Shown here: positions 15,674 through 39,035 of the stretch, piece after piece
How positions within the stretch are numbered: the first letter of the stretch is position 1
How the letters are laid out: each line of letters starts with the position of its first letter
DNA from: Synechocystis salina LEGE 00031
Lineage (GTDB): Bacteria; Cyanobacteriota; Cyanobacteriia; Cyanobacteriales; Microcystaceae
Direction of reading: 5' to 3'
NCBI RefSeq assembly: GCF_015207985.1
Contig: NZ_JADEVV010000038.1
Coordinates: 1 to 41,157 of the forward strand
DNA: 41,157 bases
Position numbers and translations under genes: made by a program
The notes under the pieces: model-generated
Told to the model about the DNA's origin: nothing
The model's database searches: none
Seen by the model: only the letters and a program-made list of their open reading frames with translations

Positions 15674-15684
15674 CTTAGAGGTTG

Positions 15685-15805
15685 AAAAATAATTAAGACC
15701 CCTGGGGATAAACCCGGCCTTTCCAGCCGCCCCCCCGACCTCGCCAATGTTGCCAAGCGGAATCGAGGGTCATGAGGCTATATAACAGGGCAATCAACGG
15801 TAGGG
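15685..15805. repeat. 121-bp direct repeat, copy 1 (duplicated 3' end of glycosyltransferase gene)
   Basis: This segment matches 22465-22585 over 121 bp without gaps and with two differences (C/T at 15727 and at 15795). At the other copy it is the last 113 bp of the glycosyltransferase gene plus 8 bp after its stop. Here it is an orphan tail with no glycosyltransferase body. Its right end supplies the final eight codons (PTVDCPVI) and the stop of the radical SAM gene in a different frame. It marks one edge of the 6.78-kb island. Confidence 0.95.
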
Positions 15806-17457
15806 TGGGGTGAGTTGGCAAAATAGGGCAGTTGCTCGTATAGACGAGGGCAAGCCACGGCCAACTGCTGGGAGCGAGAGCTATCCAACGCCTTAGTAAA
15901 ATCTATGAATTGACTCTGGAGTTGTGTTAATTGCTCAAGGGGCGATCGGGGACGTTTGAGAACTGAAATTACGGCCTCAATTTGTTGAATTAAAGCTCTA
16001 TTCATGCCATTGTTCTGCTTGTAGTTTAATAAATTTTTTAAAGCTTCATTAACTACTACCTGTGGCAACATGTCTAGGGATAAAAACTGTGGTGACCAAA
16101 GTATGTTTTCACAATAAAAAGGAAATTGATTTCTTTGGCACCAATCAGCTAAATCTAGTAATCCAAAAATATTGTAAGCTTGAGGGGTAACACGGATGGA
16201 GACCCTTATACCTGCTCGATAATAGGCGATTATGTTCTTCTCAACCAACTTCCACTGGGAAGGATAACGAATATATTCTTGCAATGCTCCGTAACCATCA
16301 AGACTAAAAGCTAATTCCACAACCCTAAATTCTTTTAACATTGTCGGAAGCTTCTTAGCATAAACCATGCCATTGGTCGAAATATATAGTTCAATTTGAG
16401 AAGCATGACCTCCTTCAATTAATCTTTCTAAAACTTCATAAAAACGATGCTGTAATAATGGTTCTCCGCCGGAAAATTGCAAAAGTCTTAACTCTTGAGG
16501 AGAGCGAAAGAGCTCTTCTAAAACTTCTTCGTTGCTGCTCCAGGAATTCGGGTAAGGGAGCCGACTGCAAAATGGCTCATATTCTCCGTTTTGACCATAG
16601 CTTTGCCTAGTGATTGTCAGATTATCAACCTCCACCCAACAACCCTCTTCCCTTAGGGATAGAACTAATTCAACATTGTCCTTGTTGAGCTTTGGCTCCA
16701 AATTCCAGTGGACTTGCCAGGGCCCAGAAGGCAAGGCTCTTTCAGACAAATCACCAGACTTATTTTGCAACGACAAAGTGAGAGTTTCCTGCCCATAATT
16801 CCAGCCCTGAAGATTTAAACCAATCGTAGCCCCTCCTTGATCTGGAAAACTTATTCCAGCGGTGCCACTCGCAAGTTTTCTCGTACATTGACTTCCCTTT
16901 AGTTGACAGTCTCCCCAACCCCAGTAGTAAACACCTCTGCGATAATGAGGCAACAACTGCTCAGACTGGGCCAGTCCACCAGACCATTGGTGATGAACAG
17001 GATCAAGGGCAATTTGGGAACTAAAGTGGGGAGAACACATCCGACATTTTAGATTGCATCGATTCCCTAGCCAGAGGTGTAAAGCCCTTGGAGGCGATAT
17101 TCGATTATCGGAACTAGCCATAGTTTTGACCATTGCTAACAGGTCATCCTGATTAGCTAACCCTAAAGATTGCAGATGTAAAGAATCATTCATTAACTGA
17201 CGCAGATTAGTACCGCCCTCCTCCTCAACGGTGTCGCATAGTCGGCAAGCAGGCACAATTTGTCCCGCCAGCATCTGGTCTCGAATCTCTCGATAGATAG
17301 GAGAGTTCCAAATTTCCTCCAGAGTGTGATGATGGATCGACAAGGAGTTTCCCTGAACTTGAAGATCCTGGTAGCTACGACAACACAAGCGAGCCCGGCC
17401 ATCGTTGAGCAACATGGCTTGAGTAAATGGCAATACGCAAAATGTAGATGAAAGCAT
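15778..17457 (-). CDS. Twitch-domain radical SAM protein with inserted beta-rich domain
   Basis: This 559-residue enzyme starts at ATG 17457, 16 bp after the stop of the preceding fusion gene, so they form an operon. Residues 1-90 are a twitch-like Cys region (C7, C25-C26, CRLC at 71-74) expected to bind an auxiliary iron-sulfur cluster. The radical SAM cluster motif is CNLKCRMC (C134, C138, C141). The SGGEP SAM-binding motif comes only at 329-333, because about 130 residues (175-305, beginning VYYWGWGDCQLKGSQC and rich in beta pattern with four Cys) are inserted in between. The catalytic half ends with LAVACPRLYEQLP. The substrate is unknown; a glycan or peptide modification is inferred from the partner gene. 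The last eight residues are encoded by the duplicated repeat. Confidence 0.82.
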   Translation of the reverse strand: MLSSTFCVLPFTQAMLLNDGRARLCCRSYQDLQVQGNSLSIHHHTLEEIWNSPIYREIRDQMLAGQIVPACRLCDTVEEEGGTNLRQLMNDSLHLQSLGLANQDDLLAMVKTMASSDNRISPPRALHLWLGNRCNLKCRMCSPHFSSQIALDPVHHQWSGGLAQSEQLLPHYRRGVYYWGWGDCQLKGSQCTRKLASGTAGISFPDQGGATIGLNLQGWNYGQETLTLSLQNKSGDLSERALPSGPWQVHWNLEPKLNKDNVELVLSLREEGCWVEVDNLTITRQSYGQNGEYEPFCSRLPYPNSWSSNEEVLEELFRSPQELRLLQFSGGEPLLQHRFYEVLERLIEGGHASQIELYISTNGMVYAKKLPTMLKEFRVVELAFSLDGYGALQEYIRYPSQWKLVEKNIIAYYRAGIRVSIRVTPQAYNIFGLLDLADWCQRNQFPFYCENILWSPQFLSLDMLPQVVVNEALKNLLNYKQNNGMNRALIQQIEAVISVLKRPRSPLEQLTQLQSQFIDFTKALDSSRSQQLAVACPRLYEQLPYFANSPHPTVDCPVI

Positions 17458-17473
17458 TGAAAATAAAGTAGCG

Positions 17474-20400
17474 TCAGGTAATCGGGAGCCCTAGTTTTCG
17501 TTTTAGCCGAAACCATTGGGTTCGAAGACACCAAAATTTGCTGGTCTGCATAGCTTCAATTTCCGCTCTGGCCTCAGTCAAATTTTGAAGAGCTTGTTGA
17601 AATTGACTGTCTAACTCTCGGGCCAATTCCTGTTTCTCTGTTAGGGTTTTGTGCAAAGTATATTGGGAATTTTTCCACTGCTCATTGAGAGCTTTAATAG
17701 TTTGCTCGGATTGTTTTAATTGGTCTTGGAGCGTCTCAACCTTCTGCCCCAAAATTTCTGTTCGCTTTCGATCCCAATTTTGGGGTGCCTGCCATAAGGA
17801 AGCAAGAATTTCCAAACCCTTCTGTAGGCCAATGACTACTTGATCTAAATCCTTTTGAGTGTGGGCATAGCAAAGATTAAAAATTCCGTAGGTGCATACT
17901 CCTTGAGTACTTAGTTCGCGGATCAAAAGATTTTTGCAAAAGTCTGGACTTAGGGAACAGGTGAGTGAGAACCAAAGCTCAGGACGGCAATCATGGCCCA
18001 CTAATGCCGACTCTATGCCATAGTTTTGACAAAGTTGATCATAGGAGTGTTTCAAAAATCGCCCCTTCTCAGCCAGCTCAGAGCAAATTTCTCGTTCTAC
18101 AATTTCACTAATAGTGGCCACTGCCGCCACAATGGATACTGCCTCTAGACCAAAAGTCAGACCGTAATTAATTTCAGATGCCTTTGCCATCAGGGATTTA
18201 CCACCTGCTAGAATTGCTAAAGGCAGACCGTTAGCAAGGCACTTGCCGTAACAGACTAAATCCGCTTGGATTTGCCAAAATTCCTGAGCTCCCCCAGGGG
18301 CAATTCGAAATCCAGAAACGACCTCATCAAAAATTAGCAGTGTTCCTGCTTCTTGCAATAGGGTGTGGATTACTGTCAGGGTTTCTCGGTCAGGAATGGG
18401 CCAGACCATAGGATCGATGATCAAACAGGCCACTTGCTGGGGATGGGCTTTTAAAATTGCTGCCACAGTCTGGACGTCGAGGGTGTCTAGTGTAACAATC
18501 TGAGCTCTTTGGCTTTCTGGTACCCCAGGACAACAAAGAGATGCCATATACCAATCCTGGACGCCATGGTAACCTCTATGGAGAACAATGTCCCTTTTGG
18601 TAATGTGACGGGCTAAGCGTACCGCTGCGGCCGTGGCATCAGAACCATTTTTAACCAGATGAATAGCCTCAACACCTGGAACTAGACGCAATAACAAGGA
18701 TTCTAACTGATACCATTCTGGCCCTACCCATCCTGTATTCGCATATTTGGCAGACTGTTCCGATATGGCCTGCGCCACCCTCGGATGGCCGTAACCTAAA
18801 ATATTGGAACCCCAGGCCGACATCATATCAACGTAGTCCACATGATTGGCTCCCACAATATGACCCTCATAGGCGTGGACAATGGTATGGGGAAAATCCC
18901 GATAGACCTCTTCCGGTGATAGAACAGGGGGAGATGGCGGCGAAAATTGATAACCTTCTCCTGGAGAATAAGCCAAAAGTTTTTCAAAGCGAAAATCCTT
19001 CGGTTTCCCGATCGCCAGAGATTGCTTTAACCAAAGGGAAAGACCATCGGATGTCAACTGGGGAGCAAGTTCTCTACTTTGATGAAAAATAAAATCACGA
19101 ATTTCTGGTTGACAGAGCTTCTCCACTGCCTGTTTGAGTTCTTCCCCGTCGTAGTTACAGACCAAACCTAGTTGAAATTTTTTTATGAAGTGGGCACAGC
19201 TAGAATCGAGGTTGCCCAGAACAATGACCGGGCGATGAACAGCTGCCACCGCCAATAGAACTCGCCAAAGGCGGGGATTTTGATCTGAAGATCCGACAGT
19301 CCTAGTCCCCACCGGAATAACCAAATAGGGGTAGCTCCTCAGATTTTCCACCAGTTCTGATTCGGCCAAAATCCCCCGAGGATGCAAACCCCATTGCTGA
19401 ACCCATTCAGGATGTGTTTGCAGATCAGTGAAGGGATCTTCTTCCGGAATCCCAGAAGCTCCATTGTACCAATCCAGACTAATGCCAGCGGTAGTCAGGG
19501 TTATTTTTAGCGATTCTATTAATTCTGTAGGTTCTAGAGCACCGATTAAAGCGCCAACGGAGTTGGGATAAAGAATGGCATCTTTGGGGAGAACTGGGGG
19601 ATCAGCCATCAATGCTGGACTGACAACCGAAGGTAGTAGCCAAAATTTCAAGCCATACTTATTTTCATAGGCTTCTCGGATTTCTGGATGGGTTACTAGA
19701 CGGAGACTTGCTTGAGACAGAAATTCGGTCATTAAGTCGTCCCCAATATCATTAAAATTGATGTTGCGATCCTCCATCAAATGAATCGCCATTGGAGCTC
19801 CACAAATTTTCTGAAGACTGAGGGCCAAAATAATATCTTCAGAAAAATAAGGAACACAGTAAATTTGCTTTACCCAATGTCCAGAAATTTTTTGAGCAAC
19901 CATATTTAAGGCTTCCTCTCGGGATAAGTCCCTGACATTAACGCAAAAATCTAAATCTCCAAATTCCTGAATACCGCCATACAAGTTCAGGGAGCGCAAA
20001 GATATAATTTGTTGTGCATCAGTCAATAAGCGTGCGATTAGAGAACCGCTTCCATGTTGATTATTAACTTCACAGGAAGTAACAGTGGCCAAGGCTTGAG
20101 TAAGGGGTTGAGCCATAGTTTTAGATTGGTCTAGAGCGGGTAAAAAAGTGAAATTGACTCCGTAAGCAACCAGAGATTGATATAGTCTTGGACAAGCCAC
20201 AGCTAGGGATTGCTGACGAGATTGATCTATTTCTTTCGTGAAACGGCTAAAACTATTTTGTAAAATCTGTAATTGTTCTTGGCTTGGACGAGGGCGATTA
20301 AGGGCGGCAATGAGAGTTTCTACGTGCCAGAGATTGGCCGGAGCGCATTGCTTATTTAAATAGCCTTCCCATTCCTCTAAAGCTTCATTGATAACTCCCT

Positions 20401-22267
20401 GGGGAAGCATATCTAGGGAAAGAAAACGAGGTTCCGTTAGAATATGATCCAAATAAAATGAGAGTTTTTTATCATCGCACCAGCGGACTAAATCAAGCAG
20501 ACTAAAAATATTATAAGCTTGAATTGTTGGTCGAATAGAAACCCGTAAATTATCCTGTTTAAAAGCTAAAATATTAAAGCAAATTTTTTCCCAACGACAA
20601 GGGTAACGAATATAATTTTGTACAGATTCAAACCCATCAACGCTAACGGCTAATTCCACATCTTGAAACTGTTGTAATAACCGGGATATTTTCTGACTAT
20701 ATTTAGTTCCGTTGGTGTTGATATAAAGGGAAATATGGGAAGCAGCATCTTGTTTAATCAGCCATTCCAAAATAGGGATAAAGGAGGGATTAATTAATGG
20801 CTCTCCTCCTGAAAAGTTAATAAAGCGTAGGTTTTCGGGATGGGCAAGAACTTGTTCAAAAACGGTTGCTTCTTGTCCAGACCAAGCCACTGAGTTTTCT
20901 CCTTGGGAGTTGCCTCCATACCAGCGGGAATGAACCGGATCCTGGGCAATGCTGGAGCTATATTGTTGGGAACACATACGACACTTGAGATTACAGGTAT
21001 TACCCAACCAGAGATGCAAAGCGGAAGGAAATGGCGCTTGTCCTTGTTCATTTGTGATAATATTCCCTATTTCAGCTTCCAATTCTTCCCTAGTTTGGGG
21101 AATCGTTCTAGTCGGGAAGTGAGCATTGCAAACCTGGCGTAAACTCGTCCCGCCGTCCTGTTCTTTTTGGTAACATTTTTGACAAGAAGCAGCCTTTTCT
21201 CCAGTCACTAGTGTATGGCGTAGTTTCCGGAAGTAGGCAGAATTCCACGCTTTATCCAGATTCATATTTTCGAGGGAAAGAATTTCTCCTTCCGATTCTA
21301 AATCTAGAGCCAAAGTTTGACTGCATAACTTTATTTTGCCTTTGTTATCAATCACAGTTTGATAAAAGGGCAAAATACAAAAAGTTTTCGAAAAATCTAA
21401 CGCGACAGGGTTAGCTTGATTTCTAGTTAAGGAGCGGGGGGAGTCTGGTGTTAAATTCTGGCTCGAATTAAAATCCTGAATTTGGAAAGCACTTTGAAAG
21501 TGGGAAGCTAAGATAGGATGATCTTGGTAATGTTTAAGTATTTGTTCGTGATTTTCCACTAGGGTTGTTAGATTGCCTTGGGTTCTTTTTTCAAACATTT
21601 TGGGAATGACAATAGGATCCACTCCGAGATGGGCTTGAATTTTAGTTAGTGTCGCATCCCAATTAGTTACTAAATCGGTGTAATCAACCCAGAGTTGTGC
21701 TTCTTGGGCAAAAAGTCCCGTAAAGTAATTCTGACCAGAGCAGTAGTATTGATAAAACCAATCAAAATACCAAGTTTCGTAGGTCAAACTGGGAGAAGGG
21801 GGAGGATTATAGGAACCGGGAACATACCAAATTGGGGAGTGGACATTGGGAGAAAACCAAATATTAGTTGTCATTGCTACCCGAAAACTGATAGCTGCTT
21901 CAACAATATTTCTAGTCAAGACAATGACCCGTAGATCTTGTTTTGAGCGGAGATAATCCCAAACTGAAGAATTGTGCCCCAAATGGTCATACATTAATTT
22001 GGTGCCATCGAAATCTTTAAAGAAAGTCTGGGCCAAAAGGCTGAGGTCGAGGCAATCGCCATCTAATTTTTTTTGATCATTTAAATAGCTATCTTGATGG
22101 CCGTAAAGATTCTCTAGGGTTTGCCGACGCCAATGCACCCAGGGATCGTCCCCTTCCTGTTCGGGATTAAAAATATCCATACCCTGACAGATATTAGGGT
22201 GAGTGCCAAGGGCGGTGATGAGTAGAGTAGAGCCGGTACGAGGATAGCAGAGAATAATGAATTTCAT
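17474..22267 (-). CDS. Fusion: sulfotransferase - radical SAM - glycosyltransferase - class III aminotransferase - coiled coil
   Basis: One open frame of 1597 residues carries several enzymes. Residues 1-265 are a sulfotransferase: CYPRTGSTLL (7-16) is the PAPS 5'-phosphosulfate loop and VIVLTRNIVEAAISF (114-128) the 3'-phosphate site. Residues 290-705 are a twitch radical SAM unit with FCILPFYQT, CQKC (362-365), CNLKCRMC (425-432) and SGGEP (486-490), ending SLAVACPRLYQSL. Residues about 760-1090 look like a GT-B glycosyltransferase. Residues 1115-1490 are a PLP class III aminotransferase close to glutamate-1-semialdehyde aminomutase, with NGSDATAAAVRLAR, IFDEVVSGFR (Asp1314) and the Schiff-base Lys1342 in CYGKCLANGLPL. 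Residues 1495-1575 are coiled coil, followed by TSKFWCLRTQWFRLKRKLGL, an ending I know from cyanobacterial surface-glycan enzymes. All key motifs are present. The product is unknown. Confidence 0.85.
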   Translation of the reverse strand: MKFIILCYPRTGSTLLITALGTHPNICQGMDIFNPEQEGDDPWVHWRRQTLENLYGHQDSYLNDQKKLDGDCLDLSLLAQTFFKDFDGTKLMYDHLGHNSSVWDYLRSKQDLRVIVLTRNIVEAAISFRVAMTTNIWFSPNVHSPIWYVPGSYNPPPSPSLTYETWYFDWFYQYYCSGQNYFTGLFAQEAQLWVDYTDLVTNWDATLTKIQAHLGVDPIVIPKMFEKRTQGNLTTLVENHEQILKHYQDHPILASHFQSAFQIQDFNSSQNLTPDSPRSLTRNQANPVALDFSKTFCILPFYQTVIDNKGKIKLCSQTLALDLESEGEILSLENMNLDKAWNSAYFRKLRHTLVTGEKAASCQKCYQKEQDGGTSLRQVCNAHFPTRTIPQTREELEAEIGNIITNEQGQAPFPSALHLWLGNTCNLKCRMCSQQYSSSIAQDPVHSRWYGGNSQGENSVAWSGQEATVFEQVLAHPENLRFINFSGGEPLINPSFIPILEWLIKQDAASHISLYINTNGTKYSQKISRLLQQFQDVELAVSVDGFESVQNYIRYPCRWEKICFNILAFKQDNLRVSIRPTIQAYNIFSLLDLVRWCDDKKLSFYLDHILTEPRFLSLDMLPQGVINEALEEWEGYLNKQCAPANLWHVETLIAALNRPRPSQEQLQILQNSFSRFTKEIDQSRQQSLAVACPRLYQSLVAYGVNFTFLPALDQSKTMAQPLTQALATVTSCEVNNQHGSGSLIARLLTDAQQIISLRSLNLYGGIQEFGDLDFCVNVRDLSREEALNMVAQKISGHWVKQIYCVPYFSEDIILALSLQKICGAPMAIHLMEDRNINFNDIGDDLMTEFLSQASLRLVTHPEIREAYENKYGLKFWLLPSVVSPALMADPPVLPKDAILYPNSVGALIGALEPTELIESLKITLTTAGISLDWYNGASGIPEEDPFTDLQTHPEWVQQWGLHPRGILAESELVENLRSYPYLVIPVGTRTVGSSDQNPRLWRVLLAVAAVHRPVIVLGNLDSSCAHFIKKFQLGLVCNYDGEELKQAVEKLCQPEIRDFIFHQSRELAPQLTSDGLSLWLKQSLAIGKPKDFRFEKLLAYSPGEGYQFSPPSPPVLSPEEVYRDFPHTIVHAYEGHIVGANHVDYVDMMSAWGSNILGYGHPRVAQAISEQSAKYANTGWVGPEWYQLESLLLRLVPGVEAIHLVKNGSDATAAAVRLARHITKRDIVLHRGYHGVQDWYMASLCCPGVPESQRAQIVTLDTLDVQTVAAILKAHPQQVACLIIDPMVWPIPDRETLTVIHTLLQEAGTLLIFDEVVSGFRIAPGGAQEFWQIQADLVCYGKCLANGLPLAILAGGKSLMAKASEINYGLTFGLEAVSIVAAVATISEIVEREICSELAEKGRFLKHSYDQLCQNYGIESALVGHDCRPELWFSLTCSLSPDFCKNLLIRELSTQGVCTYGIFNLCYAHTQKDLDQVVIGLQKGLEILASLWQAPQNWDRKRTEILGQKVETLQDQLKQSEQTIKALNEQWKNSQYTLHKTLTEKQELARELDSQFQQALQNLTEARAEIEAMQTSKFWCLRTQWFRLKRKLGLPIT

Positions 22268-22464
22268 TGCCGAGTAAATATGGGGAATGACTTTGACAAA
22301 ATAAGCCCCCCATCCAACGGCGAATCAGACTGCCACTTTACCGACCATGAGCAGATCTTTGACCATCAAATATTCTGGGGTTTTTCGAGAATATTAATTA
22401 CCACAAAACTAACCCCAGCCATCAATTAACTCAATAATATTCCCAAATTTCTTAATAGGTTTTA
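22268..22464. promoter_or_regulatory. AT-rich promoter region of the island operon
   Basis: This 197-bp gap precedes the 1597-residue gene on the minus strand. It contains an inverted repeat, AATATTCT at 22369-22376 and AGAATATT at 22388-22395, separated by 11 bp and about 100 bp before the start codon. That could be an operator or a hairpin. I see no clear -35/-10 pair. Confidence 0.35.
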
Positions 22465-22585
22465 AAAAATAATTAAGACCCCTGGGGATAAACCCGGCCT
22501 TTCCAGCTGCCCCCCCGACCTCGCCAATGTTGCCAAGCGGAATCGAGGGTCATGAGGCTATATAACAGGGCAATTAACGGTAGGG
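22465..22585. repeat. 121-bp direct repeat, copy 2 (original 3' end of glycosyltransferase gene)
   Basis: This is the parental copy: 113 bp encode the C-terminus of the intact glycosyltransferase and 8 bp lie after its stop. It matches 15685-15805 with two mismatches in 121 bp. The copies end sharply: left of 22465 and right of 22585 the flanking sequences are unrelated to those of copy 1. Confidence 0.95.
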
Positions 22586-30190: not shown

Positions 30191-33100
30191 ATGAATCAAC
30201 CAGCATTGCCTCTACAAATATCAGCCGAACTAGGCAACTGGTTACAAACAGAGCAGCTAAGTCTGGGACTGAGTACTTACCAAACCAATCGGTTAATGAT
30301 GGTGGGGAGTAACAGCGAAGGCAGACTGGCACTGAATGAACGACTGTTTGATAAACCCATGGGGTTGTACGTGAAGAACCAGAGCCTTTACATGAGCACC
30401 CGCTACCAAATTTGGCGCTTCGATAACTGCCTGCAACCGAGAGAAACTTACCAAGAAGCCGATCGCCTTTATCGACCGAGCCAAAGTTATATCACTGGCG
30501 GTCTTAATGTCCATGACCTGGTGCTGGATAAAAACGGCTCCCTCTTATTCGTCAATACTGACTACAGTTGCCTTGCCACCCTCGAAGAAGGGCATAGCTT
30601 TAAACCCCTGTGGCAACCTCCCTTTATCAAAAAATTGGTTTCCCAAGATAGTTGTCACCTCAATGGCTTAGCGATGGTGGATGGGGAACCCCGCTATATG
30701 ACCGCCTGCGGTGAAACCAATAAACCGGCGGGTTGGCGTAACCATCGGCAAAATGGTGGCATCATCCTGGACATCTCCAGTAGTGAAATCATTGCCACTG
30801 GGCTATCTATGCCCCACTCCCCCCGCTGGCATGACGGCAAACTCTGGTTACTCAACTCCGGCACAGGGGAACTGGGTTACATCGAAGCGGAAAAGTTTGT
30901 GCCGGTTACCTTCTGTCCTGGCTTTGTGCGAGGACTTACTTTCTGGAAACACTGGACGATCGTCGGTTTATCGCAACTGCGCTCCAAGAATTTTGGGGGA
31001 TTAAGACTAGAGGAGCGCTTAAATGAAATCGGTCAAACTCCCCAGTGTGGGGTAATGGTGATTGACCTACGGACAGGGGAAATTGCCCATTCCCTGATTT
31101 TTGCTGGCGTGATTGAAGAACTGTACGACGTGGTGGTTATCCCTGGAGTGACTAAACCGAGGGTGATTGGTTTTCAAGATGAAGACATTGAAAGGCTGAT
31201 TACCTATCCCGGTTGTCAGGGACTGATTACCACCAAACCCGCTGTCAAACGTCCCAGCCTTGGCCCCAAAGCTCCCATTCCTGGGCTAGCCACTAAAGAA
31301 CGGGTGGAGCGGGAAAACCAAGAAGCTAGGGAAATCGAGGACTTAGAACGACAAGCAGAACTGGCGGCCGCCCCGGTCAAATATCAACGGGTTTATCACC
31401 TCAACCCAGAAAGCCTTGTCCCCTATGACAATATGACCTTTCCCAGTCTGCAACAACGCTGGCAACAGCAACCCCAACGGGGAGAAGTGGTGGGGGTATC
31501 AGCCTCTCGGTTAGGGGATTTGGTCGGTTTTGTGATTGGAGAACAGCTCAGTCCAGAGCGGGTTGAAATTATTTCTTTTAACGTTGATCCCAGTCAACGT
31601 CGCCAGGGTATTGGTCTTCGGATGTTGCAAATCTTGGAGCAGCAACTGGTAAGAGAAGGGGTAACGCAATTTGTCTTCCTCTATCCGCCGATCGCCGATA
31701 TTTGTATTGCCTTAGAACCGTTATTGCAACAGTTGGGCTGGCAACCGCCAACTATGTTGAGTCCCCAGGTAAAGGGAAGCCACAAAACCTTTGCTAAGGC
31801 GGCTGATGTTGTTAAAAGTTCGACTAATGTTGCTGTTAATGACACTATCAAGCAAGCTTTTCAGGCAGGAAAACAGTTAGCCCAAGCCGGACAATTAAAA
31901 GAGGCTGTAGAGCAATTTCAGTCCGTTCTATACCAACAACCCAACTATATTCCTGCTCTCAATCAACTGGGGAATGCTTGGCAACAGTTAGGAGAATTAG
32001 ACAAAGCGATCGCCTGTTACCAACAGGTCTTAGAAATTAATCCAAACATGGCCGTTGCCCATTGTAACCTGGGTAGTATTTGGCAAATGCAAGGAAAATA
32101 TAAAGAGGCGATCGCCGCCTATCAAAAAGCCATTGAACTAAAATCTGATTTTGTCTTGGCCTACCGAAATTTAGCAAGTCTTTATACTAGTTACCGGCAA
32201 TTTCAACGGGCAGAAATGGTGCTTTGGCGACTTCTAGAATTTCAGCCTGAAGACCCAGAAAATCACCAACTTTTGGGAAATATACTCCGTCAAATGGGCC
32301 ATCTAGAAGAAGCAATTAGTTGTTTTAAAAATGCTATTAAATTAAACCCTCAGTTCAGTGAAGCTTATTATAGTCTGGGGTGTTTATTGATTACCAAAGG
32401 ACAACTTAATACAGCTAAACAATACTTGCAAAAAATCCTCAAGACTCCATTGGATCAGCTTTCTTTTAATCCATCTTTCGTTTACAGCAGTTTAGGTTTT
32501 ATCTTGGAAAACCAAAATAAATTCCTAGAAGCTCTCCATGCCTACAATCAATCTTTGCAACTCAATCCCGAAGCAACGGAGATTTTTTATCAACGGGAAC
32601 ATCTACGGTTAATCCTTTGTGATTGGGATGACTTTGATCATCGGATGCAAATCCTAACTGAACGCATTCAAAATCATTTAGAAACGCCCCATTCTGCCAA
32701 ACTTACCCCCCTGAGTTTGAATAGCTTTGGGGCCCCGATCGCCTTACATACCACCGTCAATCGTCATTGGAGTCAAACGATTACGGAGGCCATGGCGGAA
32801 CTGAAAGCCCACTGTGGGTTTACGCCCCGCAGGTTTAACCGAGAAAAAATTCGCCTAGGCTATCTATCCGCCGATTTTCGTAGTCATGCGGTGGGTTCCC
32901 TCATTGCCGACATTTTTCAATATCACGATCGCAATTTGTTTGAGGTCTATGGCTATTCCCTAGCAGACACAACCGATGAAACCACAAAAATTATCCAAAA
33001 GGGTTGTGATTTTTTTGTCAATATTGCCTCTCTCTCTGTGGAAGCCGGCGCACGGCGTATTTACGCTGACGAGATTGATATTTTGATTGATTTAGGGGGT

Positions 33101-33934
33101 TACACCACTTCATGTCGCCCAGAAATCCTCGCCCTCCAACCTGCGCCGATTCAAATGCAATATTTGGGTTATCCCAACACTATGGGAGCCGAATTTATTC
33201 AATATATACTTAGCGATCGCCAGATTATTCCTCCAGAACTTACCCCGTATTACACTGAACAGGTGATTGAACTGCCCCAGGCGTTTATTGCCTCCCCAGT
33301 GGAAATCACCAAAAAAGCGCCCCCCCGCTCGGCCTTGGGATTACCCGAAAAGGGATTTGTCTATTGCTGTTTTAATCGCACTGATAAATTTGATCCTTAC
33401 TTATTTACCGTATGGATGCGTATTCTCCAACAGGTTCCCGACTCTGTGCTCTGGCTAAAGGATATTTCCCCTGAAATCACCCAAAAACTACGACAAGATG
33501 CCCAATCCCAGGGGGTTGCACCAGAACGCCTAGTATTTCTTTCGAACATTCCTTTGGCCGACGACTTCATTGCCCACTATCAACGGGCGGATTTATTTCT
33601 GGATACATTTAATTACAGTGCTGCTTCAACGGCGATCGCCGCTTTACAATCGGGACTACCCATTTTGACCTGTCCTGGGGAAACCTTTGCTTCACGGATG
33701 GGAGCCAGCATTTGTCATACCGTTGGCTTGGATGACTTTATTTGCGAGAGTCCCCAATCCTATGAAGAACAAGCTATTTATTGGGGAACCCATCCTCAAG
33801 AATTGCAGGCTATTCGAGATAATTTATTACAAACAAAGGGAGAGTTGCCCCTATTTCAGCCAAAGCAATGGGTTCGTAATTTAGAGTCGGTTTTACAGTC
33901 TCTTTGTAGTGGCGACAACTGTGTACAAGCTTAA
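30191..33934 (+). CDS. TIGR03032 - GNAT - TPR - O-GlcNAc transferase-like fusion protein
   Basis: One 1247-residue frame holds four modules. Residues 1-350 match the TIGR03032 family, a probable beta-propeller (GLNVHDLVLDKNGSLLFVNT, CHLNGLAMVDGEPRYMTACGE, MPHSPRWHDGKLWLLNSGTGEL). Residues about 430-525 are a GNAT acetyltransferase with the acetyl-CoA loop RRQGIG (470-475). Residues 550-800 are tandem TPRs (ACYQQVLEINPNMAVAHCNLG and others). Residues 880-1240 are the GT41/SPINDLY-type O-GlcNAc transferase catalytic region: LGYLSADFRSHAVG, GGYTTSCRPEILALQPAPIQMQYLGYPNTMG, FNRTDKFDP, RADLFLDTFNYSAASTAIAALQSGLP. The protein probably glycosylates proteins, with the other parts binding or modifying the target. 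The start is ATG 30191. The gene follows the CvkR-like gene by 76 bp and is not in any operon I can see. Confidence 0.87.
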   Translation: MNQPALPLQISAELGNWLQTEQLSLGLSTYQTNRLMMVGSNSEGRLALNERLFDKPMGLYVKNQSLYMSTRYQIWRFDNCLQPRETYQEADRLYRPSQSYITGGLNVHDLVLDKNGSLLFVNTDYSCLATLEEGHSFKPLWQPPFIKKLVSQDSCHLNGLAMVDGEPRYMTACGETNKPAGWRNHRQNGGIILDISSSEIIATGLSMPHSPRWHDGKLWLLNSGTGELGYIEAEKFVPVTFCPGFVRGLTFWKHWTIVGLSQLRSKNFGGLRLEERLNEIGQTPQCGVMVIDLRTGEIAHSLIFAGVIEELYDVVVIPGVTKPRVIGFQDEDIERLITYPGCQGLITTKPAVKRPSLGPKAPIPGLATKERVERENQEAREIEDLERQAELAAAPVKYQRVYHLNPESLVPYDNMTFPSLQQRWQQQPQRGEVVGVSASRLGDLVGFVIGEQLSPERVEIISFNVDPSQRRQGIGLRMLQILEQQLVREGVTQFVFLYPPIADICIALEPLLQQLGWQPPTMLSPQVKGSHKTFAKAADVVKSSTNVAVNDTIKQAFQAGKQLAQAGQLKEAVEQFQSVLYQQPNYIPALNQLGNAWQQLGELDKAIACYQQVLEINPNMAVAHCNLGSIWQMQGKYKEAIAAYQKAIELKSDFVLAYRNLASLYTSYRQFQRAEMVLWRLLEFQPEDPENHQLLGNILRQMGHLEEAISCFKNAIKLNPQFSEAYYSLGCLLITKGQLNTAKQYLQKILKTPLDQLSFNPSFVYSSLGFILENQNKFLEALHAYNQSLQLNPEATEIFYQREHLRLILCDWDDFDHRMQILTERIQNHLETPHSAKLTPLSLNSFGAPIALHTTVNRHWSQTITEAMAELKAHCGFTPRRFNREKIRLGYLSADFRSHAVGSLIADIFQYHDRNLFEVYGYSLADTTDETTKIIQKGCDFFVNIASLSVEAGARRIYADEIDILIDLGGYTTSCRPEILALQPAPIQMQYLGYPNTMGAEFIQYILSDRQIIPPELTPYYTEQVIELPQAFIASPVEITKKAPPRSALGLPEKGFVYCCFNRTDKFDPYLFTVWMRILQQVPDSVLWLKDISPEITQKLRQDAQSQGVAPERLVFLSNIPLADDFIAHYQRADLFLDTFNYSAASTAIAALQSGLPILTCPGETFASRMGASICHTVGLDDFICESPQSYEEQAIYWGTHPQELQAIRDNLLQTKGELPLFQPKQWVRNLESVLQSLCSGDNCVQA

Positions 33935-35226: not shown

Positions 35227-37875
35227 GTGGCTAACGTATATATTTCTCAAACAGGAAGCAACAACCCCTTCAATGGCATTGATATTGGGAGTTACAGCGC
35301 TCCCACCTTGGCGGATATTGATGGCGATGGCGACCTGGATGCGATCGTGGGGGAATTTGACCGCAATCTCAAATACTTCCAAAACACAGGTAGTAACACC
35401 GCTCCCGTCTACACCGAGCAAACCGGCACGGCTAACCCCTTCAATGGCATTAATATCAGGCGTTACAGCAAACCCACCTTGGCAGATCTCGATGGCGATG
35501 GCGACCTGGATGCGATCGTCGGGGGACGTAACAGCACTCTCAAATACTTCCAAAACACAGGAAGTAGCACCGCTCCCGTCTACACCGAGCAAACCGGCAC
35601 AGCTAACCCCTTCGATGGCATTAATGTCGGGTCTTTCAGCGCTCCCACCTTCGCGGATCTCGATGGCGATGGCGACCTGGATGCGATCGTCGGGGAATCT
35701 TACGGCACTCTCAGATACTACCAAAACACAGGAAGCAGCACCGCTCCCGTCTACACCGAGCAAACCGGCACGGCTAACCCCTTCGATGGCATTGATATTG
35801 GGAGTTACAGCGCTCCCACCTTGGCGGATATTGATGGCGATGGCGACCTGGATGCGATCATCGGGGAACTTAACGGCACTCTCAAATACTACCAAAACAC
35901 AGGAAGCAGCACCGCTCCCGTCTACACCGCCCAAACCGGCACAGCTAACCCCTTCAATGGCATTAATATCGGGAGTTTAAGCGCTCCCACCTTTGCAGAT
36001 ATTGATGGCGATGGTGACCTGGATGCGATCGTGGGGGAAAATGACGGCACTCTCAAATACTTCCAGAGTGTTCCTGCGATCGCCATTACCCCAACAGGTG
36101 GCAACACCCAAGTCACCGAAGGCGGAGCCACGGATAGCTATACAGTAGTCCTAAACGTTCAACCCAGCGCCGATGTGACGATCGCCCTCAATGGTGGCAC
36201 GCAACTCAGCACCAACTTCACCACCCTCACCTTCACCAGCGCCAACTGGAATGTTCCCCAAACCGTCACCGTCACGGCAGTGGATGATGGCATTGGCGAA
36301 GGACCTCACCGGGGTGTGATTACCGCCACCAGCAGCAGCACCGATTCCCGTTTCAATGGCATCGCGATCGACGCTGTACCCGTCAGCATCACCGACAACG
36401 ACCTCCCCACCACTCCCCGCTTCTACACCCAGCAAACCGGCACAGCTAACCCCTTCAATGGCATTAATATCGGGAGTTTAAGCGCTCCCACCTTTGCAGA
36501 TATTGATGGCGATGGTGACCTGGATGCGATCGTGGGGGAAAATGACGGCACTCTCAAATACTTCCAGAGTGTTCCTGCGATCGCCATTACCCCAACAGGT
36601 GGCAACACCCAAGTCACCGAAGGCGGAGCCACGGATAGCTATACAGTAGTCCTAAACGTTCAACCCAGCGCCGATGTGACGATCGCCCTCAATGGTGGCA
36701 CGCAACTCAGCACCAACTTCACCACCCTCACCTTCACCAGCGCCAACTGGAATGTTCCCCAAACCGTCACCGTCACGGCAGTGGATGATGGCATTGGCGA
36801 AGGACCTCACCGGGGTGTGATTACCGCCACCAGCAGCAGCACCGATTCCCGTTTCAATGGCATCGCGATCGACGCTGTACCCGTCAGCATCACCGACAAC
36901 GACCTCCCCACCACTCCCCGCTTCTACACCGAGCAAACCGGCACGGCTAACCCCTTCAATGGCATTGATATCGGGGATTACACCGCCCCCACCTTGGCGG
37001 ATCTCGATGGCGATGGCGACCTGGATGCGATCGTGGGGGAACGTTACGGCAATCTCAAATACTACCAAAACACAGGAAGTAGCACCGCTCCCGTCTACAC
37101 CGAGCAAACCGGCACGGCTAACCCCTTCGATGGCATTGATATTGGGAGTTACAGCACTCCCACCTTCGCGGATCTCGATGGCGATGGCGACCTGGATGCG
37201 ATCGTGGGGGAACGTGACGGCAATCTCAACTACTTCCAAAACACAGGAAGTAGCACCGCTCCCGTCTACACCGAACAAACCGGCACAGCTAACCCCTTCA
37301 ATGGCATTAATATCGGGCGTTACAACACTCCCACCTTCGCGGATCTCGATGGCGATGGCGACCTGGATGCGATCGTGGGTGGATTGTACGGCACGCTCAA
37401 CTACTACCAAAACACAGGAAGCAGCACCGCTCCCGTCTACACCGAGCAAACCGGCATAGCTAACCCCTTCGATGGCATTGATATCGGGGTTTTGAGCGCT
37501 CCCACCTTCGCGGATCTCGATGGCGATGGCGACCTTGATGCGATCGTGGGGGAACGTGACGGCAATCTCATTTACTTCCAGAGTGTTCCTAACTTAGCGC
37601 CCACCGCTGTTGCTTTGAATAATCAGGTCACAACGATCGCTGAAAACACCGACACCACAACCCGTATCAAGGTCGCAGATATTGCCATCACTGATGATGC
37701 TCTAGGAACCAACACGATCTCGCTGAGTGGTGCCGATGCCGCTAGTTTTGAAGTCGATGGAACCGAACTTTATCTCATAGCGGATACAACCTTAGACTTT
37801 GAAGCCAAGCCAAGTCTAGTTATGCTGTTACCGTCACCGTTGATGACACCACCGTTGGTGCTACTCCTGATGTGA
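35227..37875 (+). CDS. FG-GAP/Calx-beta repeat surface protein, 5' part of broken gene
   Basis: The frame starts at GTG 35227 and ends after 882 residues at a TGA reached only because of a frameshift near 37810. It has ten FG-GAP-like repeats of about 57 residues, each with [19 protein letters not shown], whose Asp residues bind Ca2+. Five lie before and one between two Calx-beta-like domains ([27 protein letters not shown]), and four after them. The tail reaches a cadherin-like domain ([25 protein letters not shown]). There is no signal peptide, as expected for type I secretion. Relatives are large adhesins or S-layer-type proteins. The last ~25 residues ([14 protein letters not shown]) are out of frame. 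The intact ancestor would have had about 1270 residues. Confidence 0.8.
35932..36930 (+). repeat. Perfect tandem duplication, 501-bp period
   Basis: Bases 35932-36429 and 36433-36930 appear identical base for base, an offset of 501 bp (167 codons), so the frame is kept. Each unit holds one FG-GAP repeat and one Calx-beta-like domain. Neighbouring FG-GAP repeats show numerous differences, so this duplication is recent. Confidence 0.92.
37805..37814 (+). repeat. 5-bp tandem duplication CCAAG x2 causing a frameshift
   Basis: The sequence is GAAG-CCAAG-CCAAG-TCTAG. In the next paralogous repeat of the same gene it is GAAA-CCAAG-TCTAG. The extra CCAAG shifts the frame and produces the stop at 37873-37875. 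The protein continues in the other frame. Confidence 0.88.
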
Positions 37876-39035
37876 CAGCTAACTTCACCCTGACCGTCAC
37901 GGATGTGAACGAAGCCCCAACGATCGTTGCTTTGAATAATCAGGTCACAACGATCGCTGAAAACACCGACACCACAACCCGTATCAAGGTCGCAGATATT
38001 GCCATCACTGATGATGCTCTAGGAACCAACACGATCGCTCTGAGTGGTGCCGATGCCGCTAGTTTTGAGGCTGATGCCACTGGGTTGTACATCAAAGCGG
38101 ATACAACCTTAGACTTTGAAACCAAGTCTAGTTATGCTGTTACCGTCACCGTTGATGACACCACTGTTGGTGCTACTCCTGATGTGACAGCTAACTTCAC
38201 CCTGACCGTCACGGATGTGAACGAAGCCCCAACTATCGTTGCTTTGGATAATCAGGTCACAACGATCGCTGAAAACACTGACACCACAACCCGCATCAAG
38301 GTCGCTGATATTGCCATTACCGATGATGCCCTAGGAACCAACACCCTCAGCGTCAGTGGCACCGATGCCAGTTTCTTTGAAGTCGATGCCACCGGACTTT
38401 ATCTGAAAGCCGGCACTGTCCTCGACTTTGAAACCCAAAGCAGTTTTTCCGTGACCATAGAAGTGGATGACACAACGGTAGGCAATACCCCCGATGCCAC
38501 TGCTAATTTCACGTTAACCGTCACGGATGTTAACGAAATTGATGGCAATGATGCAGCTAATTTTCTCTTTGGAACCGGAAAAAATGAATTAATTCGAGGT
38601 TTTGGTGGCAATGATATTCTTTTAGGCAATGGCGGTAACGACACCCTCTATGGCGGAGAAGGAAATGATATTCTCAATGGCGGGTTTGGGTTTGGTGATG
38701 ACGTGCTTATTGGAGGACTGGGAAGGGATAAGCTCATTGGTGGATTAGGCAATGATAAGTTTGTCTATAAAGCTTTAAATGAAGCAGGAGATGTAATCCT
38801 TGACTTCAATCGAAACCAAGATCAGTTAATTTTAACTGAGTTATTTACAAGTCTCGATTACGCTGGCACAGACCCCATTGCTGATGGTTATCTCCGCTTC
38901 AATCGCCTAGGATTTAGTACCCAGGTGCAAATTGACGCTGATGGTCTAAGCAATGGCTCCAACTACACCACCCTGACCACCCTAATAGGAGTTTTTCCTT
39001 CTAGCCTCTCCGTGGGGACTAATGTTGTGATCTAA
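37872..39035 (+). CDS. Cadherin-like repeats and RTX calcium-binding C-terminus, 3' part of broken gene
   Basis: This 387-residue frame continues the 35227 gene. It has two to three cadherin-like repeats of about 100 residues ([37 protein letters not shown]; ends [27 protein letters not shown]). RTX nonapeptides follow from about residue 230: [29 protein letters not shown]. They form the Ca2+-binding beta-roll that drives folding outside the cell after type I secretion, and [15 protein letters not shown] is the usual segment after it. The frame's GTG at 37872 overlaps the previous stop, but this is a frameshift product, not a true start. A corrected gene would run 35227-39035. Confidence 0.8.

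Follow-up and report, generated by a model that had tools for sequence, protein, structure and literature searches.

The window (the whole stretch of DNA analysed, 41,157 nucleotides) carries on its minus strand an intact multi-enzyme gene, P0001, which encodes a single chain of 1597 residues. The frame starts with ATG and has no stop inside; the plus-strand reading of 17474-22267 is riddled with stops. The modules follow one another in the order sulfotransferase, radical SAM, GT-B-type and class III aminotransferase, after which the chain ends in a region with a coiled-coil look and the tail SKFWCLRTQWFRLKRK (Table 1). The length is that given in an earlier sequence-only reading, and the domain order given there is borne out by Pfam and NCBIfam profiles and, for the GT-B module, by the fold of a model. 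Sulfotransfer_3 (PF13469, Pfam) matches residues 4-217 with 32.0 bits against a cut-off of 27, N_Twi_rSAM (NF033640, NCBIfam) residues 293-697 with 304.9 bits against 170, and Aminotran_3 (PF00202, Pfam) residues 1127-1416 with 116.6 bits against 30.5. Each of the motifs named in that reading was also located in the translation: CYPRTGSTLL at residue 7, CNLKCRMC at 425, SGGEP at 486, IFDEV at 1312 and Lys1342, which sits within CYGKCLANG (starting at residue 1339). We take Lys1342 and Asp1314 to be the PLP lysine and the aspartate of a class III aminotransferase.

Table 1. Coordinates of P0001, its modules and the surrounding insert (window positions)
Feature	Position	Strand	Basis or remark
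P0001, 1597-aa mosaic gene	17474..22267	-	ORF list and translation
Sulfotransferase module, residues 4-217, PAPS-type loop PRTGSTLL	21617..22258	-	PF13469 (32.0 bits), relatives
Auxiliary Fe-S (twitch) domain, N-terminal, Cys297/315/362/365	21158..21391	-	PF13186, invariant Cys, BtrN match
Radical SAM core, CNLKCRMC 425-432	20168..21037	-	PF04055, NF033640, model pLDDT 91.8
GT-B-type module, residues 728-1100, without the conserved LSLP loop	18968..20086	-	Relatives and fold
Class III aminotransferase module, residues 1126-1489, Lys1342, Asp1314	17801..18892	-	Profiles, motifs, tree
C-terminal tail, coiled coil by eye, ends SKFWCLRTQWFRLKRKLGLPIT	17477..17800	-	Translation; common to two C109 proteins
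Insert, 6656 bp	15806..22461	.	Missing from nearest same-genus genome G076
124-nt direct repeat, left copy (3' end of hpnB, duplicated, with spacer)	15682..15805	.	
124-nt direct repeat, right copy (3' end of hpnB, native)	22462..22585	.	
Second N_Twi_rSAM gene, 559 aa, 16 nt downstream of P0001	15778..17457	-	

A two-gene insert and the distribution of its architecture

P0001 was acquired recently, within a two-gene insert that lies between hpnB and a WD40 gene. In the nearest same-genus genome, G076, which provides the empty-site comparison (the stretches fetched from three other genomes of the genus gave no WD40 match), hpnB adjoins the WD40 gene and both radical SAM genes are missing at that site; a search of the whole G076 genome with P0001 residues 1-715 gave no match. 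Within the fetched G076 stretch, 12 of the 15 flanking proteins sought were found, 90-99% identical to those of the window, the regional DNA is 89-91% identical, and the 124-nt repeat is present in a single copy. The two copies in the window are 98% identical, with a spacing of 6780, and since they are closer to each other than to G076, the duplication would have followed the split of the two genomes, barring gene conversion. Because the 3' end of the 559-aa radical SAM gene (its final eight codons and stop) lies within the left copy, this gene was either cut or ended at the junction. Given the repeat flanks and the empty site, the P0001 block is a recent gain rather than a frame fusion. Thus, of the earlier worry that the gene might be a frame-fused artefact of one strain, the restriction to one strain has held and the frame fusion has not.

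The two genes occupy nearly the whole insert, with no recombinase gene seen inside, and likely form one operon; scans of 22200-22560 for promoters and terminators found none. Their GC3 values are 0.377 and 0.398, versus 0.445-0.619 in the 11 other genes measured. An origin as a copy of another part of the same genome was considered and ruled out, because the insert is single-copy there save for a short similarity of the GT module to contigs C24 and C109. In the protein encoded by the second gene (15778-17457), an extra stretch of about 137 residues stands between the CxxxCxxC loop and SGGEP; this stretch is present neither in P0001 nor in the third aligned sequence (alignment A1).

The searches made here found the architecture in no second genome. 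Among the matches listed for 386 genomes of the phylum, with the best two candidates scored per genome, the only full-length match to P0001 is in its own genome, and the best match from elsewhere spans residues 719-1099. With residues 1-715 as query, 10 of 50 genomes from the family show matches, which are weak and partial in every genome but the own one (best 2.4e-8). Across 388 genomes of the order, only the own genome exceeds the cut-off of the N_Twi_rSAM family; in the family of G105, 1 of 251 genomes does. Whole-protein pattern scans of genome and viral contigs, in which an exact short peptide match is required, found no relative of P0001; 784 plasmid records match it, none over 80% of the query, and the 36 phage records that match residues 1-715 are all Vibrio phages and cover about half at most. 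The statement that no described system has this order of domains is contradicted neither by the sequence searches nor by paper searches confined to open-licence PMC articles, which turned up no account of the architecture, nor of any NF033640 function. P0001 is a modular glycan-type mosaic protein, a known kind, with an unusual set of partners.

The radical SAM module and its family

Like other members of the N_Twi_rSAM family, P0001 combines an N-terminal four-Cys auxiliary domain with a CxxxCxxC motif, but it adds the fused sulfotransferase, GT-B and aminotransferase modules. In alignment A3 (76 sequences: 74 of the 172 family members and the two window proteins), C297, C315, C362, C365 and the three cysteines of CNLKCRMC are invariant throughout. 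The module keeps 37 of 39 conserved family columns, its 2 departures comparing with 0-8 in relatives. The auxiliary pattern is CX12GX4C...CX2C, and the extra Cys that stands beside Cys315 in most relatives is Ser316 in P0001. A SPASM/twitch domain had been proposed, and an auxiliary Fe-S domain is indeed present; its place, however, is N-terminal to the radical SAM core, whereas in ordinary SPASM/twitch enzymes it is C-terminal.

A profile of the auxiliary domain (A7, 57 sequences) searched against the PDB matches the C-terminal twitch domain of BtrN, with E values of 8.7e-5 and 1.2e-4 and all four cysteines aligned; this is the sole credible match, the next being a zinc finger at 0.06. The twitch pattern CX9-15GX4C...CX2C occurs in 54 of the 57 rows, and the SPASM second-cluster motif CX2CX5CX3C (as defined in PMC6231123) in 0 of 57 within the first 100 residues. 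According to PMC9012708, the twitch enzyme BtrN uses a four-Cys auxiliary cluster and oxidises an aminocyclitol alcohol to a ketone. The likeness of P0001 to this enzyme (2-deoxy-scyllo-inosamine dehydrogenase of the butirosin pathway) lies in the auxiliary domain, which is similar over all four cysteines; the P0001 core is not specially close to the BtrN core, and the auxiliary domain is C-terminal to the core in BtrN but N-terminal in P0001. In the BtrN pathway, radical SAM oxidation is paired with a transaminase step. To our knowledge, BtrN has no such fused partners. An AlphaFold model of the radical SAM module has a high pLDDT (91.8), but its best ten Foldseek matches, headed by the peptide maturases SkfB and SuiB, reach a TM of only 0.35-0.40.

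N_Twi_rSAM genes abound in viral contigs and are often multi-copy, with at least two copies in 71 of 80 viral loci, and long frames of the family are fusions to TPRs, to a second radical SAM domain, or to a methyltransferase and WbsX. In 155 loci, no called N_Twi gene is fused to sulfotransferase, GT-B or aminotransferase modules. An acidobacterial N_Twi_rSAM-methyltransferase-WbsX protein (L165:9818-13504, a 1229-aa frame) is likewise a long mosaic in which N_Twi occurs with a glycosyltransferase, but that glycosyltransferase belongs to another family, and there is no sulfotransferase or aminotransferase match. Two Elusimicrobia MAG contigs, L203 and L207, carry three and four long N_Twi_rSAM frames in tandem; in each, the two frames scanned both carry TPRs.

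A general glycan neighbourhood of the family was also considered, but is not supported by a neighbour census, in which no glycan signal was dominant. On each side of a locus this census took a single gene of 150-480 aa beyond the last N_Twi gene, which leaves genes between copies, such as the L119 aminotransferase described below, uncounted; 6 of the 75 genome loci were without a called N_Twi gene. The 114 genomic neighbours, with 25 of their 90 families listed, include 8 radical SAM, 4 PhyH and 2 GT2 genes, and the 109 viral ones (137 before removal of near-copies) include 15 radical SAM genes, 1 GT7 and 1 class III aminotransferase. Any one sugar or aminotransferase family thus accounts for no more than 2 of the 114 genomic neighbours (GT2, among the families listed) and 1 of the 109 viral ones.

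A pairing with an aminotransferase does occur in viruses. In L119, L153, L157 and L197, a profile search of the 155 loci found a class III aminotransferase at a distance of one gene from N_Twi; L153 and L157 look near-identical. In L197 and in L190 (both Saprospiraceae) the aminotransferase is a full class III enzyme. With the L119 aminotransferase as query, 16 viral loci came up (L281-L296; 59-100% identity, two with a partial gene), three of them the starting contigs L119, L153 and L157 and 13 beyond these; since several are also near-copies, the independent cases are fewer than 16. The N_Twi_rSAM gene overlaps the start of the aminotransferase in all 16, by 1 nt in 14 and by 4 nt in two, and the order, radical SAM before aminotransferase, is that of P0001. 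BLAST detects no similarity between the viral aminotransferase, which is BioA-like, and that of P0001, homology beyond the class being undetectable, so that the pairing counts as a parallel case rather than as descent of both halves from a common source. In addition, a UDP-glucose/GDP-mannose dehydrogenase gene lies 5-7 kb upstream in both loci scanned (L119 and L153), and a pelagimyophage study mentions radical SAM gene cassettes and glycosyltransferases in a host-recognition region (PMC7029224). Class III aminotransferases three to seven genes from N_Twi (L195, L224, L225, L227, L229 and L231) were set aside, as all four scanned are plain HemL. At L119:7165-8001, a HemC (hydroxymethylbilane synthase) gene lies directly upstream of the viral N_Twi_rSAM gene.

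Sulfotransferase, GT-B, aminotransferase and tail

Of 340 genomes of the order, 12, among them the own genome, have a sulfotransferase match that passes 1e-8, and the three closest relatives are single genes, 28-31% identical to the P0001 module. One of the relatives, in G070, lies within a Wzx/Wzy-type cluster; the 10 annotated of its 14 surrounding genes include a flippase, a second sulfotransferase, GT2 enzymes, Wzy and a Wzc-like gene. According to the synechan study (PMC8205485), the sulfotransferases of cyanobacteria are mostly found in such clusters. The synechan xss cluster of Synechocystis 6803, described there, resembles P0001 in using cyanobacterial sulfotransferases and glycosyltransferases for a sulfated exopolysaccharide, but it consists of separate genes, and the passages on it name no radical SAM or aminotransferase gene (PMC8205485).

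At E 0.1, Pfam gives no match for residues 719-1100. The sequences related to this stretch are modules of tandem cyanobacterial GT-GT-FkbM proteins (those of C24 and C109 in the own genome, and others), which are 29-40% identical. In the two own-genome proteins scanned, the GT-like modules have no Pfam match either; both proteins end in a confirmed FkbM methyltransferase domain and match no sulfotransferase, radical SAM or aminotransferase. The glycosyltransferase label consequently rests on the fold. An AlphaFold model made with 20 sequences (mean pLDDT 78) matches 6kih, 3mbo and 2gej, i.e. sucrose-phosphate synthase, BshA and PimA, with a best E of 2.3e-11 and a TM of about 0.6, and on this model residues 728-1100 are a predicted GT-B fold. 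The LSLP loop, kept in 18-19 of 19 rows of the relatives, is deleted in P0001. In one own-genome GT-GT-FkbM protein (L246:4250-7264), the first GT copy is degenerate, with 23 of 63 conserved columns changed.

In the phylum sample, the aminotransferases nearest to the P0001 module (L018, L019 and L020) have PseG as their immediate neighbour, and another relative, L272, occurs with NeuB and a cytidylyltransferase. A nonulosonic-acid product, considered for the PseG-adjacent aminotransferases, has against it that the own genome has a lone NeuB match, of 30.6 bits, over the cut-off of 22.1 but low. A HemL (GSA aminomutase) function was ruled out: the TIGR00713 score, 183 bits, is far under the cut-off of 527.3, and the module falls outside the clade of the four HemLs tested, although its branch is very long (4.45 changes per column) and its place in the tree unsure. 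The NF004856 (PRK06209-type) score of 192 bits is likewise below its cut-off of 486, as are those of the PseG-linked relatives L018 and L020 (422.7 and 375.9).

All three modules depart from columns conserved in their relatives, whose own figures are lowered by partly close kinship among the comparison rows: the sulfotransferase at 20 of 52 columns (1-4 in most of the 11 relatives, 21 of 52 in one), the GT module at 17 of 60 columns that at least 18 of its 19 relatives keep (0-3 in 17 of the 19 rows, 9 of 58 in L017 and 23 of 63 in a C109 copy), and the aminotransferase at 18 of 68, of which three precede residue 1120 (0-8 in 21 relatives). The earlier suggestion that the whole chain could be active was made from the motifs, which are all retained; the changes in the GT module, with its lost loop, and in the long-branched aminotransferase weaken it.

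The tail recurs in the own genome in two C109 proteins (E 3.4e-6 and 3.1e-4) and, more weakly, in one of C35 (0.0045). Of the two C109 proteins, one is a group 1 glycosyltransferase and the other is without a Pfam match; the contig also carries a GT-GT-FkbM protein and two further methyltransferases. A surface-glycan role, as proposed from the sequence-only reading, fits the contexts of the sulfotransferase and aminotransferase relatives and the occurrence of the tail in C109, but the N_Twi neighbour census lends it no such backing.

A possible relay and its alternatives

These findings are best read, tentatively and with considerable doubt, as a relay on a glycan, in which radical oxidation of a C-OH is followed by transamination to C-NH2 and by sulfation; the sugar substrate, the step order, every activity and the envelope location are what we infer here. 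In this model, a sugar or glycan would be held by, or handed along, the one chain. The N_Twi radical SAM module would generate the 5'-deoxyadenosyl radical and, with the four-Cys auxiliary cluster as electron acceptor, a hydroxyl would become a carbonyl by BtrN-like chemistry. The class III aminotransferase would then convert the carbonyl to an amine, and the sulfotransferase would place sulfate from PAPS onto the amino sugar. The GT-B module would bind or transfer the sugar, perhaps as a binding or scaffold part only, given its loss of conserved positions; the tail might dock P0001 with envelope glycosyltransferases, and the adjacent second radical SAM protein could perform a related step. 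Counted in favour of the relay are the domain hits and motifs, the well-kept columns of the radical SAM module, the BtrN match of the auxiliary domain, the viral couples with their shared gene order and upstream dehydrogenase genes, and the glycan contexts of the sulfotransferase, aminotransferase, GT and tail relatives. Counted against it are the departures in the GT, aminotransferase and sulfotransferase modules, the different, BioA-like kind of the viral aminotransferase, the low TM values with peptide maturases atop the Foldseek matches, the N-terminal auxiliary domain unlike that of BtrN, the one NeuB match and the rarity of sugar and aminotransferase neighbours.

Together, P0001 and the viral couple give a concrete, testable reaction for N_Twi_rSAM, namely alcohol oxidation followed by transamination, and the locus shows cyanobacterial glycan-type enzymes undergoing reshuffling and transfer within a small block flanked by repeats. 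A wider form of the hypothesis, in which P0001 is a single-chain amination-sulfation line that starts with a permuted-twitch dehydrogenase, N_Twi_rSAM enzymes at large are dehydrogenases and the viral couples are portable sugar-amination cassettes, is rather doubtful.

It is somewhat unlikely, but the best of the alternatives, that P0001 is a glycan mosaic whose radical SAM module is not a dehydrogenase but epimerises, decarboxylates or otherwise changes a sugar, with the modules acting on different units and no relay. The family profile also matches, within the core, BlsE (cytosylglucuronate decarboxylase) and viperin; furthermore, auxiliary clusters are found across several reaction types, and in this subfamily it is hard to predict fold or function from sequence networks, as noted in PMC6231123. 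The viral couples, however, with overlapping genes in 16 of 16 loci, suggest a carbonyl made for transamination.

Another possibility, an unlikely one, is that the chain is largely a relic or scaffold, in which the radical SAM module is active and the GT module, perhaps with the aminotransferase and sulfotransferase, is catalytically dead. The missing LSLP loop and the changed GT columns would be so explained, as would the altered aminotransferase on its very long branch. Yet Lys1342, Asp1314, the PAPS loop and the radical SAM cysteines are all kept, the frame is open across 1597 codons, and the low departures of the relatives partly reflect their close kinship.

A RiPP-like modification of a peptide or protein, with radical SAM/twitch and aminotransferase as in daptide-type pathways, appears improbable. 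The best Foldseek matches (SkfB, SuiB, a sactipeptide enzyme) point that way, and daptide_amino is among the weak matches of the aminotransferase; its score, however, is 64.2 bits, far under the cut-off of 450, and the sulfotransferase context, the GT module and the tail point to glycans. Finally, an assembly or frame-fusion artefact, which the occurrence of P0001 in one genome only might suggest, is scarcely credible in view of the continuous frame, the repeat-flanked insert inside a 41-kb contig, the empty site in G076 and the GC3 shared by both insert genes (0.38-0.40 versus 0.445-0.619 in 11 others).

Two further loci of the window were noted. At 30191-33934 lies another mosaic, in which TIGR03032/DUF4915, a GNAT acetyltransferase, TPRs and GT41 form one chain of 1247 aa. 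At 35227-39035 there are two overlapping repeat-rich frames, by eye FG-GAP-like and then cadherin-like, with what looks like a frame break where they join near 37870.
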